From Symbiodinium sp. CCMP2592 (lineage: Eukaryota; Sar; Dinophyceae; Suessiales; Symbiodiniaceae): a DNA stretch of 64,000 bases. Both the position numbers and the translations under genes were made by a program. This document shows positions 12,596 to 59,842 of this stretch, piece after piece (position 1 is the first letter of the stretch; every line of letters begins with the position of its first letter). Location of the stretch: positions 132,001 through 196,000 of the forward strand of contig CAJNDT010005833.1 in the NCBI GenBank assembly GCA_905221615.1, given 5' to 3'. Under the pieces are notes generated by a model that saw nothing but the letters and a program-made list of their open reading frames with translations, made no database searches and was not told the origin of the DNA.

Positions 12596-12711
12596 TACTT
12601 GGAGGATCATGGGACTTAGAAAGTAAGGTCATCAGTACCTTTATAACTAATTATAAGTATAGTTACCCTACTTATAACCCTAGTTACTAAGTCCCATGAT
12701 CCTTTAGGTAG
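12596..12711. mobile_element. Short inverted-repeat element, family A
   Basis: The arms read TACTTGGAGGATCATGGGAC and its complement at 12,691-12,711, enclosing an AT-rich core. This is the same family as the first intron of the NSUN2-like gene (59,491-59,608). Confidence 0.8.
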
Positions 12712-14220: not shown

Positions 14221-14925
14221 GGAATAGTATTCGTAATGATTTAGGCCCCTATAGTAGAGCCTACGCCTAGGTCGAAATCTCCTTGTCTCTGGGACTGGCG
14301 ACTGGCCGTCAAGCGCAGTTTGGGGATGAAGGTGCGATATTTATCATAAGGAACCCTAGTCAATAATGTTCCTAATAATTCCCTGACTAGGGTTTAGGGT
14401 AGGGTTGAGTAGAATATGTCCTAGTTCCTCAGATTCAGGCCCCCAAAGTCTGGGGTTTCGGGTAGGGTTTAGTAGACAGAAGACCCTTTCAGGCCAAGAT
14501 CCGAAAAAGACTCCGAGCTCGGGCACCCCTGAATCCTAAACCCCTTAACCGCGCTAATCCCCCAAACCCCTAAACCCCAAACAACTCTAGACTCAAAGTT
14601 GCTAGAAACGGGCGAGCCTCCGAATTTGAGTCAGAATCCATTGGGCTCCGAAGCTTCCAAGGGACCCGTCGGGACTTTCAGAAAACAAGCTTTTCTGAGC
14701 CCACTCTGGCAGGAGCGGATGGCTGTATAGGGGTTCAGGGGCGACATGACAAGCCATGGAAACCCTCCCGTCACACACACCCAACGAGCCCGAGCGCTCT
14801 GATGGGGTGTATATAAGGGTTTAGGGCTTTAATCACCCTGGCAACCCCCTACCTTCAGACCCCAATCCCCCTTATGAGTTTAGAGCTTTGTGATTTGCGG
14901 CTTACAAGTCTACCAGGTCCCCCGA

Positions 14926-15038
14926 CTTAAAAGATCATGGGACTTAGTAACTAGGGTTATAATTAAGGTAGCTGCACTTATAATTACATATAGCCCCAAT
15001 TAAGGTACTTATAACCCTAAGTCCCATGATCCTCCGAG
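14926..15038. mobile_element. Short inverted-repeat element, family A
   Basis: The left arm GATCATGGGACTTAGTAAC faces CTAAGTCCCATGATCC on the right. The core has TTATAATTAAGGTA and AATTAAGGTACTTATAACCC, as in the 44,143 and 59,491 copies. Confidence 0.8.
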
Positions 15039-33874: not shown

Positions 33875-34000
33875 TTACTTGGAAGGGCAGGGGACTTAGT
33901 AAGTAGGTTATAAGTAGGGTTGTAATTGGGGTAGCTCCATTTAGGGTAGTTATAACTCTACTTATAACCTACTTACTAAGTCCCCTGCCCTTCCAAGTAG
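33875..34000. mobile_element. Inverted-repeat element, family A, with perfect 42-bp arms
   Basis: The left arm (33,875-33,916) begins TACTTGGAAGGGCAGGGGAC and is exactly complementary to the right arm (33,958-33,999) over 42 bases, with a 41-base core. Identical arms suggest recent insertion or arm conversion. Confidence 0.9.
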
Positions 34001-34496: not shown

Positions 34497-34602
34497 ACTT
34501 ACAGGATCAATTATAACTAAGGTAACCGTACTTATAATTACTTATAACCCCAATTCAGGTACTTATAACCCTACTTACTAAGTCCCATGATCCTCCAAGT
34601 AG
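34497..34602. mobile_element. Family A element, left end damaged
   Basis: The right half (TATAACCCTACTTACTAAGT then CCCATGATCCTCCAAGTAG) is intact. The left arm has lost the GGGACTTAGTAA core. Confidence 0.75.
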
Positions 34603-34697
34603 ACCCTAAACCCTAAACCCTTATAGTACCCCTATAGATCCCTTAAAGGGACCCCTATAACCCTACTTTCTAAGTCCCATGATCCTCCAAGTAAGCC
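34603..34697. repeat. Composite tail with second family A right arm
   Basis: CCCTAAA units, then TTATAGTACCCCTATAGATC and a second CTAAGTCCCATGATCC arm. The block is nearly identical to 44,268-44,360, so the composite was duplicated as a unit. Confidence 0.75.
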
Positions 34698-44142: not shown

Positions 44143-44267
44143 TACTTAAAGGATCATGGGACTTAGTAACTAGGGTTATACTTAGTGTAACTGTCCTTAT
44201 AATTACTTATAACCCCAATTAAGGTTCTTATAACCCTACTTACTAAGTCCCATGATCCTTCAAGTAG
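44143..44267. mobile_element. Inverted-repeat element, family A
   Basis: TACTTAAAGGATCATGGGAC and its complement at 44,246-44,267 (CCATGATCCTTCAAGTA). The core matches the copies at 14,926 and 34,497. Confidence 0.85.
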
Positions 44268-44360
44268 ACCCTAAACCCTAAACCCTTATAGTACCCCTAT
44301 AGATCCCTTAAAGGGACCCCTATAACCCTACTTTCTAAGTCCCATGATCCTCCAAGTAGG
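44268..44360. repeat. Composite tail, duplicate of 34,603-34,697
   Basis: The same CCCTAAA units, TTATAGTACCCCTATAGATC, and second family A right arm as at 34,603-34,697, almost base for base. Confidence 0.8.
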
Positions 44361-57308: not shown

Positions 57309-57420
57309 TGCCCCAAGGGTCCAAGTACCCAATAATCATATACTCTCCAGAATCCTAACCTACATAACTACTATCCTAAACCCGAGTACCTGATTATTGG
57401 GTCCTTTGGAACCTTGGGGC
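57309..57420. mobile_element. Short inverted-repeat element, family N
   Basis: GCCCCAAGGGTCCAAGTACC faces GGGTCCTTTGGAACCTTGGG. It abuts a half family M element on its right. Confidence 0.8.
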
Positions 57421-57503
57421 CCTAATATAGCACCCTAAATAGTAGGATTCTTATTATAAGGACCCAAACTATGGTACCCCTATTTTCGGAAACTCCCATG
57501 TTA
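57421..57503. mobile_element. Family M element, right part, at the NSUN2-like stop codon
   Basis: CCTAATATAGCACCCTAAAT and CCCTATTTTCGGAAACTCCC form core and right arm. Its tip (AACATGGG on the minus strand) overlaps the TAA stop of the NSUN2-like frame, so the stop codon may lie in inserted DNA and the true 3' end of the gene may have been different. Confidence 0.7.
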
Positions 57504-59842
57504 GGTTTTTGCAGGCCCAGCTGGCGCAGCTGCTGCATCCTCGAGCCTCGCAATGCAATTCTGCAGCATGTCCCCGGTTGCCAACAGCTTGATCAGCCCA
57601 GTCTCCACGACTGCAGCGAGAGCGACTCTTCCGTCTTCAGATGCGACGATGGCACCACCCTCCTCCTCATCGCTGGGCGCAGTCCGATTTGCCAGTAAGG
57701 TGGAAGTGCAGGGGAAGACACGTCGAGTGGCGAGTCGCGCGAGGAGCGGGGCCTCCTCATGGCATGGTCGCCAGGCGGAGAGCCTTCGTGGCCACCAAGA
57801 CTCCTTGGGCATGCATGTGGCCACTGGCGAGCCGCCATCCAACACGTTCGCCTGCCTATGTCGCTGAATGTCTCCGAGGCGGCGAGCTACAGAAAGAAGC
57901 ATCCTGCGATCCCTGCGGAAACCCGGAATGCAGAGCTGGTCAGCAACGCCATGCTGCAGCAGATCTACGGCTGAGATGCCGAACAATTTGCACACACCCT
58001 CTGTCATGTCGGAGGGAGCTACGGGAAACATCGGCTTAAAGATTTTCCTGGGCTTTTTGTCGCCGAACCATGCCAACCGAGCTGCATCCTCTTTCTCCTC
58101 GTCGGCACTGTCCTCCTCTCCCTCCTCTCCTGCTCCGCCCACTCCCACTCCATGCTTGTGCATGGGCCGCATGGGTTTCTGCCGGCGCTCGATGACACAA
58201 AGAAAGAAGCCAGATCCACCTTCGTATGTTGGCAAAGCACGGCGACAATGCTTCAACTGCTTGGACACAGGCGAGCTAGCAGGTGGCGGCCGCATGGTAG
58301 GCACCTCAACTCCAGCATGCCCGGCATACCCTTCTGCTTGGGGTGTGGGCGATCCAGGTACCTTCCAGAATGAAATGCCCGGGTGCAATCCAACATCCTC
58401 CTCAAGGAGTCGCGCTGGTAGTGGCATAATCTCGCAGTCTGCGGCTTCGACCAAGGCTGCAGCCACAACAGCTTCGTCTTCGATTGGATTCAGCGAGCAG
58501 GTGCTGTAAACAAGCTGACCTCCTGGCGCCAGGAGCTGCAGGCCACGCCGGAGGATCCGAAGCTGCAGTGGGTGTAGAGCCGAGCCCCGACTCACTTCGA
58601 AGCTATCCTGTGTCTTTCGCAGCTGGCCATCGCCAGAGCAAGGCACATCGCAGATCACACGGTCATACCGCAGCTTGGGGAAGGCACCCCGCGGTCCTGC
58701 AATGCGCAAGGCAGGGAAATTCGCTGCATCTGTGCAACAGACGAGGATTCCACGTGCCAATGCGGGGGACCAGCGCGCTCGCGACAGCAATCTCCGTGCA
58801 CGTTTCTCGCCTCGCTCATTTGCGACTAGAAATCCACCTCGGTCCGGGTCCCTTCCCGGAGTTGAAGGAGCCGAAGTAAGGGCATCAAGCAACTGCATGG
58901 CCTTCGAGCCAGGCGCAGCACACATATCCAAGCAGGCCATATCTGGTGCAAGAGGCTTCATCGCGAGGACTGGCAACATACTACTGACATCCTGTAGGCA
59001 AAGGTCGCCCTCTTTCCTGGTCCATGGTTGGGATTCCGGGAAAGCATAGAAAAAATGAGAACTTCTATTCCTTCCATCCTGGGCTTAAGTACGCATAAAC
59101 CTGTAAACTGTTACGGAACCATGACAAAGTTTCATCAGCCTGAGCACGCAAAGGCCGATTTCCTTGCACGAGGCCTTCGAAAGGCAAGGGCCGGGCTGGC
59201 CAGGCACCACCCGGAAAGCGTTCGGCGCCCAGGGCACTGGTGCCAAATTCGGTAGTACAGCTTTCAACCGCGCCAGAGATGCTGCTGCTGTCCTAGTTCA
59301 TGGTTGGGATAGGAATAAAAATTTACATGTTTATTCCTTATTGGGTTCAAGCATCCATAAGAATGTAAAATGTTACCTTACTATGACGAAGTGTCGGAGA
59401 CTCTGCGAATCTGCATTGAAACGGCGCTCCTGGACGCGCCATTGCAGCGAGAGCGGCCTCCAATGCAGCTGGGTTTGCAATCCCCTGCTCCTCATAGTAC
59501 TTGAAGGCTCATGGGACTTAGTAACTAGGGCCACAAGTCAGGTAACTATATACTCACTTATAGCCCCAATTAAGGTGCTTATAACCCTACTTACTAAGTC
59601 CCCTGCTCCTGATAGTAGGCTGCGAAGGCTGGCCACCGGCGACGGCCTTCGGCAGCAGCGGTGGCGAGGCTGTTCGGCTGCTCCTCCGTGAGATCATAGA
59701 GCATGTGTGGGACCTTTTCATCCTCATGATTCTCCTCATCCTCGCTACCTTCACCTTCTTCAGCACCAGTGGCCAAATCGGCAAAAGGGGCAGACACAGC
59801 GGCATCCTCGCTAGCATCCACGTTCTCAGGTGACGCTGGCAT
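57501..59842 (-). CDS. NSUN2-like: NSUN2-like tRNA (cytosine-5) methyltransferase, four exons
   Basis: Exons on the minus strand: 59,842-59,609, 59,490-59,396, 59,292-59,134 and 59,016-57,501. Joined, they give 667 codons and a TAA stop, with matching phases (0, 2, 2). It would use S-adenosylmethionine to methylate cytosine in tRNA. Seen: an acidic N-terminus; PAFAAYYQEQG (compare FEKYYKEL in NSUN2); PVPWAPNAF, the place of PLSWYPEELAW; CLQDVSSMLP; the SAM site LDMCAAPGSKAMQLLD (about residue 192); DVPCSGDG with C289; and YSTCSLNPIEDEAVV with the likely nucleophile C336. The C-terminal third keeps KIFKPMFPVAPSDMTEG and is otherwise diverged. Human NSUN2 is 767 aa. The ATG at 59842 is the first in this frame after an upstream stop. 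All three introns use GA...AG and carry direct repeats at both splice sites. DNA across the gene lacks the telomere-like words of its surroundings. The exon 4 frame alone (57,501-58,979) is certain; the splice sites are inferred. Confidence 0.85.
59017..59133 (-). mobile_element. Intron 3 of the NSUN2-like gene, introner-like family R
   Basis: 117 bp. Inverted ends GTCATGGTT and AACCATGGAC; it shares GTAACA-TTTACA, TTATGCG-ACTTAAGCCCA and ATCCCAACCATG with intron 2. Boundaries on the coding strand: ...CTGAT|GAAAC and ACCAG|GAAAG, so GAAA is repeated at both splice sites. Removal joins ATG codon halves in phase 2 and links VLRLM to KEGDLCLQDVSSM. Confidence 0.8.
59293..59395 (-). mobile_element. 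Intron 2 of the NSUN2-like gene, introner-like family R
   Basis: 103 bp, same family as intron 3 (GTCATAGTAAGGTAACA at one end, ATCCCAACCATGAAC at the other). Boundaries on the coding strand: TCTCC|GACAC and CTAG|GACAG, with GACA repeated. Removal joins ...FAESP to TAAASLARL in phase 2. Confidence 0.8.
59491..59608 (-). mobile_element. Intron 1 of the NSUN2-like gene, introner-like family A
   Basis: 118 bp containing GGGACTTAGTAAGTAGGGTT and its opposite arm CCTAGTTACTAAGTCCCATG, the same family as intergenic copies at 12,596, 14,926, 33,875, 34,497 and 44,143. Boundaries: TATCAG|GAGCAGGGGA and TATGAG|GAGCAGGGGA. The duplicated stretch extends over 19 bases (TACTAT[C/G]AGGAGCAGGGGA). Removal joins AFAAYYQ to EQGIANPA in phase 0. 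Confidence 0.88.

Follow-up and report, generated by a model that had tools for sequence, protein, structure and literature searches.

Three small non-autonomous DNA transposons very probably inserted, independently of one another, into the coding sequence of an NSUN2-like gene of Symbiodinium sp. CCMP2592 and became spliceosomal introns. Symbiodinium is an alga living as a symbiont of corals. The gene is situated on the minus strand of the window, by which the whole analysed stretch of 64,000 nucleotides is meant; the strain is called S. tridacnidorum CCMP2592 in passages of PMC11453091 and PMC11114475. The splicing of the three segments from RNA, as well as the order and age of their gains, we infer from the DNA and protein sequences.

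Exons 1 to 4, located at 59842-59609, 59490-59396, 59292-59134 and 57501-59016 of the minus strand, were joined into an uninterrupted frame of 668 codons, the last of which is the stop. An earlier sequence-only reading had claimed that excision of the three segments restores 667 codons in frame, and this was confirmed by translation: the protein obtained after the removal of intron 1 (118 nt, 59608-59491), intron 2 (103 nt, 59395-59293) and intron 3 (117 nt, 59133-59017) has 667 amino acids. All three introns have the form GA...AG|G. If kept, they would introduce 8, 4 and 1 in-frame stops, respectively. Exon 1, running from ATG to ...TACTATCAG, was delimited by translation, by the deposited protein P0001 and by its register against 27 copies of the intron-1 element, and exons 2 and 3 by translation and the alignment of relatives. 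Exon 4 contains the methyltransferase domain and the stop codon. PF01189 was matched above the Pfam cut-off at residues 188-364 of the 667 (E 7.8e-23), and solved NSUN2 structures were the best of the 23 structures matched (E 1.9e-44, residues 163-462). The gene product is accordingly predicted to be an NSUN2-like RNA m5C methyltransferase.

The deposited Nsun2 of Symbiodinium sp. CCMP2592 (P0001) was identical to the 667-residue frame through all three junctions, until the last four residues, which, together with the frame lacking internal stops, bore out the intron coordinates and junctions proposed earlier. The frames of all four relatives compared (P0002-P0005, 88-91% identity) also ran through the three junctions. 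At the intron-1 junction the relatives read AAYYEEQGIASP, with AAYFEEQGIASP in P0004; at the intron-2 junction they have TA preceded by ESP or QSP, and at the intron-3 junction LMKEGDL. For introns 1-3 respectively, 36, 29 and 43 in-frame, stop-free GT/GC/GA...AG pairs no more than 45 nt from the intron ends were scored by protein alignment with relative P0002, and the GA...AG|G pair of the earlier reading was the top-scoring one of these pairs at all three introns. GT-AG splicing was rejected, the best such pairs reaching 1067, 1091 and 1092 compared with 1101 for the GA pairs; for GTAAGT within the intron-1 element, no in-frame, stop-free pair was present among those listed. Within the 19-bp direct repeat of intron 1, three or more placements that use different end motifs scored 3 points above the GA pair. 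These placements give E instead of the Q of the deposited protein. GA-AG|G is known as a normal splice class in Symbiodinium and the Symbiodiniaceae: the donors of S. natans are GT 23.6, GC 58 and GA 18.4%, with the acceptor AGG in 97.1% (Table 2 of PMC10666404), and a mutant of S. minutum SSB01 lends support to splicing at GA-AG(G) (PMC5818653).

The deposited Nsun2 has 1089 amino acids and departs from the 667-residue frame just before the stop at 57501. The rest of it was located in many small exons over ~33 kb, at about 22306-55657 of the minus strand (15 tblastn pieces), and P0002-P0004 end at the same point as the 667-residue frame; the deposited model may be a fusion of two genes. Nested inverted repeats with 23-nt arms (87% complementary) and 15-nt arms (93%) lie 3' of the stop codon at 57310-57420 and are possibly another MITE.

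Introns 2 and 3 were aligned with a score of 86, whereas the shuffle maximum was 45 and none of 1000 shuffles reached 86, in agreement with the relatedness asserted in the sequence-only reading. Inverted ends had been claimed there for each segment. The claim holds for intron 1, which has strong 40-nt arms of 75% complementarity (fold z -4.4; reached by 20/5000 shuffles), but the arms of introns 2 and 3 are imperfect: the inverted ends were reached by 728/5000 shuffles for intron 2, 88/5000 for intron 3 and 33/5000 for the consensus of their family, referred to as family 2. Introns 2 and 3 are identified by family membership and not by inverted ends.

The genome searched comprised 1.098 Gb in 5,383 contigs. 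With intron 3 as a query, 40 of 109 first-look places were scored, intron 3 itself among them; with intron 2, 40 of 1,783 candidates. The 28-base left end of family 2 was found at 1,947 places in the genome with at most 2 mismatches, and its backward control at 0. Among the other 39 matches listed for intron 2 (from the 40 scored of 1,783), 38 stopped at its last base, 103, and the match started at base 5 in 20 and at base 4 in 12, which puts the first four bases of the intron outside the element. Exact 4-bp target-site duplications were determined for both introns: GACA at 59392-59395 with the second copy at 59289-59292 for intron 2, and GAAA at 59130-59133 with the second copy at 59013-59016 for intron 3. 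Therefore, each of these introns is a duplication plus an element, bases 1-4 and 5-103 in the case of intron 2 (99-bp element, 59293-59391), and GAAA with a 113-bp element (59017-59129) in the case of intron 3. The splice sites coincide with the edges of element and duplication, and nothing else is recognisable within either intron. In the proposed mechanism, a family-2 element would have duplicated 4 bp of coding sequence starting with GA; the 5' GA would then come from the duplication, the 3' AG from the element end and the following G from the second duplication.

The duplication was also evident in the family as a whole. The four duplicated positions agreed at 0.70-0.76 each in 67 copies, compared with 0.16-0.37 at the four preceding positions, and a perfect 4/4 duplication was present in only 29 of 66 non-duplicate copies, a count omitting the duplicate locus L044, matches short of either element end (intron 3 included) and flanks below 200 bases. 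When the flanks were joined with one 4-bp copy, 11 of the 66 matched another fetched locus; the other joins gave 7 (3 bp), 4 (5 bp), 3 (two copies) and 2 (none). Family-2 left ends were also observed head to tail with a period of 117 bp in a tandem array of three (L047:1266-1599), and copies of both element families occur within (TTTAGGG)-like runs at L015, L027, L052, L086, L097 and L105.

Family 2 appears to form introns in different genes, as judged by frame and protein match at NSUN2 introns 2 and 3 and at the locus L083. With the L083 copy (duplication GAGA) excised, a VWA domain (PF13519, E 4.9e-8) is restored over the junction, and P0121, a protein from another source, has the same residues through the junction, SMAGRR|EAIAKAAV, which fits an intron of a VWA-domain gene. 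The copies in L102 and L048 are likely introns, judged from their frames only: in L102 (GACA) a leucine-rich-repeat-like frame is kept, all of its Pfam LRR matches preceding the junction, and L048 (GAAA) has a frame of 437 codons. The Pfam match of L048 was under the cut-off and was discounted; L074 and L040 had no Pfam match.

Splice-competent ends were detected in 10 of 16 family-2 copies in long sense frames (100 codons or more after excision, with no fewer than 15 on either side) and in 7 of 49 others (Fisher p 4e-4), with the exclusions of the duplication count and the NSUN2 copy also omitted. The antisense control followed the same trend (5/8 compared with 12/57), so the strand test is not a clean control for family-2 introns, and the enrichment of splice ends therefore supports genic context rather than strand. 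In the long-open-frame copies L070, L074, L087, L045 and L038 the flanks agreed at just 0-2 of 4 bases; in L103, 3 of 4 duplication bases agreed, but the first base is A. L074 and L087 are similar loci with a family-2 copy amid long open stretches and with unequal flanks, GAAG/GCCT and GAAT/GCCT.

Intron 1 belongs to a different family. Its alignment scores with introns 2 and 3 were reached by 100 and 153 of 1000 shuffles, so no relationship was detected, and the earlier view of two unrelated families was upheld. The intron-1 element is a family-1 MITE of 120 bp including both TA copies (59498..59617, minus strand), 87% identical to the family consensus, with the first TA at 59617-59616, the second at 59499-59498 and terminal repeats at both ends. 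The ends of the 27 aligned genome copies are TACTTGGAGGATC.../...GATCCTTCAAGTA, also given as TACTTGGAGGATCATGGGACTTAG... and ...CTAAGTCCCATGATCCTTCAAGTA. Of 53 family-1 copies, 6 had flanks that matched other loci when joined with one TA, compared with 1 for none and 3 for TATA. An empty site was found for L003, whose flanks with one TA matched L058 at 74 of 80 ungapped positions; the gapped scores were 124 for one TA, 113 for none and 116 for TATA. Family 1 is thus a TA-inserting MITE. MITEs of the Tc1/mariner type are short, have many copies and terminal repeats, and use a TA target, all of which family 1 shares; its placement in that superfamily is a guess, because TA alone supports it.

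As the sequence-only reading had stated, family 1 is scattered between genes, and several further copies lie in the window: at 44143..44266 (minus, outside the gene, 92.7% to consensus), 12596..12710 (plus, 85.5%) and 14925..15038 (minus, 88.4%), with a diverged family-1-like copy with matching ends at 33876..33999 (72.3%) and a partial copy at 34511..34601 (minus, 94.5% over 91 nt). Near larger copies, 38-bp fragments of the family-1 end with identical scores were seen at 34656-34693 and 44321-44358. Loci fetched for other reasons held 17 copies in 137 kb, which, being near other repeats, only suggests an order of magnitude of about 100,000 copies genome-wide. Among 56 copies examined, a clear coding frame was present solely at the NSUN2 copy, where the longest spanning frame has 180 sense and 196 antisense codons, the next copy having 140; this survey, omitting incomplete matches, repeated flanks and flanks below 100 bases, is small enough to miss rare genic copies. 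On the evidence of these 56, family 1 resembles a general MITE rather than an introner family.

A 19-bp direct repeat (D4) with one mismatch lies on both sides of intron 1. Its left copy keeps exact register with the family-1 terminal repeat and shows no indels against the 27 aligned copies. A 19-bp target-site duplication was rejected as the simplest reading on this basis, as the other copies show that the element covers the left copy. The deposited protein fits a 5' junction at AG|GA, nine bases in from the end of the element, where GGAG|GATC is already present in the family consensus. The 3' site is at TACTATGAG|GAG in the old exon, nine bases on from where the second TA begins. The start of exon 2 agrees with the consensus terminal repeat at 16 of 21 bases, where the median over the 80 rows scored, several being views of the NSUN2 site itself, was 6 of 21; the repeat end at NSUN2 agrees with exon 2 at 19 of 21. 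Exon 1 ends in the codons TAC TAT CAG, for which the consensus repeat has TAC TTG GAG. Since the 5' junction is nine bases inside the element, the last 9 nt of exon 1 (59609-59617) would by position be transposon terminal repeat. The four relatives carry E at the position of Q in CCMP2592, as expected if the intron now holds the displaced host TAC TAT GAG. The nine bases could have originated from a mutated terminal repeat with selection for Tyr-Tyr, from conversion by exon 2 or from a local duplication.

Intron 1 on balance probably shows how a TA-MITE that is ordinary and abundant can turn into an intron, with an exchange of exon for transposon DNA. The MITE would have inserted at the TA of GCC-TA-CTATGAGGAG. 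Its terminal repeat holds a ready GA 5' site nine bases in, the AG|GA of the consensus repeat end TACTTGGAG|GATC; the 3' site would be the host's own, available only through a chance likeness of the target to the terminal repeat. Transposon TAC TAT CAG would have taken the place of the original TAC TAT GAG, now at the intron end. The length of exon 1 would thereby be kept, with three transposon-derived codons at its end and the Tyr-Tyr pair again matching the protein.

The repeat around intron 1 might instead have arisen when some 19 bp of exon (TACTATSAGGAGCAGGGGA) were duplicated in tandem, the MITE being trapped between the two copies or taking the place of part of them. The direct repeat itself and the closer likeness of its left copy to exon 2 (19/21, against 16/21 for the consensus repeat) agree with such an origin; however, the exact register of that copy with the MITE repeat would require the end of the duplication to coincide by chance with exactly the terminal-repeat length, and we consider this course improbable. 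The exon may have converted part of the terminal repeat. The exact register of the intron-1 element also speaks against old introns at all three positions, most of whose sequence was later replaced by invading transposons. Genes of the Symbiodiniaceae are indeed intron-rich, with 14.7 introns per gene in S. natans (PMC10666404), and the elements do occur in non-coding stretches, as in L068, where a family-2 copy lies between exon-like matches. However, introns 2 and 3 contain nothing recognisable beyond duplication and element, with splice sites on their edges, and a paralogue is open at all three positions, which makes this history very unlikely. The reading of the gene as a disrupted pseudogene carrying MITEs, with no introns at all, is less probable still. 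The in-frame stops of all three segments would suit it; against it, exon 4 is intact over about 505 codons, exact excision restores the full frame, the deposited model has the same junctions and GA-AG|G is normal in the genus.

Gain by insertion, as proposed in the sequence-only reading, is supported by the exact 4-bp duplications of introns 2 and 3, the TA target and empty site of family 1, the genome copies, the deposited protein, the four relatives and the paralogue. Target-site duplications demonstrate insertion into continuous sequence, and the predicted pre-insertion sites of the NSUN2 introns are GCCTACTATGAGGAG, TCTCCGACAGCA and GCTGATGAAAGAG. The paralogue (L060:1105-2619, C300) has an uninterrupted frame of 504 amino acids with 43% identity, aligned across all three intron positions; it may itself be an intron-free copy, and it is therefore supportive of gain rather than proof. 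A third NSUN2-like locus, L068:491-2009, has its exon matches broken up, and its family-2 copy (924-1028) has TTTA on both sides.

Similar introns have been described in other dinoflagellates. Introners of family 1 in S. microadriaticum (LSRX01000224.1:86725-86839) have 4-bp target-site duplications and terminal inverted repeats (Gozashti et al. 2022; PMC9860276, legend of Fig. 2B), and they take the 3' site from the element and the 5' site from the duplication, with an example of 115 nt. NSUN2 introns 2 and 3 have the same anatomy, with imperfect inverted ends; the likeness is one of described architecture and not of sequence, and it makes them further cases of a mechanism already known. Intron 1 is built differently from those introners; no description of its anatomy was found in the literature searched, which was available largely as passages. 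Mixed recruitment of splice sites is reported in other lineages in the same paper, and intron 1 is a modest variant close to these mixed cases. The introner elements of Amoebophrya are short inverted-repeat introns with direct repeats at their boundaries and a spread like that of non-autonomous transposons (Farhat et al. 2021, PMC7789003); most of them are described as having no fixed boundary motif, whereas the NSUN2 introns are all GA...AG|G, the normal splicing of the Symbiodiniaceae. Recent introner-made introns of many families are reported in Polarella glacialis and other dinoflagellates (Roy et al. 2023, according to the review PMC11453091), their likeness to the NSUN2 introns being one of description and not of family comparison. 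PMC10522408 gives 3.2-6.3% as the share of introner-containing genes in Symbiodiniaceae. The introner origin suggested in the sequence-only reading stands for introns 2 and 3, which match introner anatomy; for intron 1 it is limited, family 1 looking like a general MITE in the 56 copies.

The general phenomenon has already been published for Symbiodinium, and what is new here is a well-resolved instance of a known process. In the NSUN2 gene, intron gain can be followed down to the single base, and two mechanisms can be compared: in introns 2 and 3 the target would supply the 5' site and the element the 3' site, and in intron 1 the element the 5' site and the target the 3' site. If the route proposed for intron 1 is true, a MITE need not be an introner to become an intron: any with AG|G in its terminal repeat could do so at the rare targets that match it beforehand. 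The findings fit the idea that GA-donor splicing in Symbiodiniaceae enlarges the set of target sites where a transposon becomes a harmless intron.
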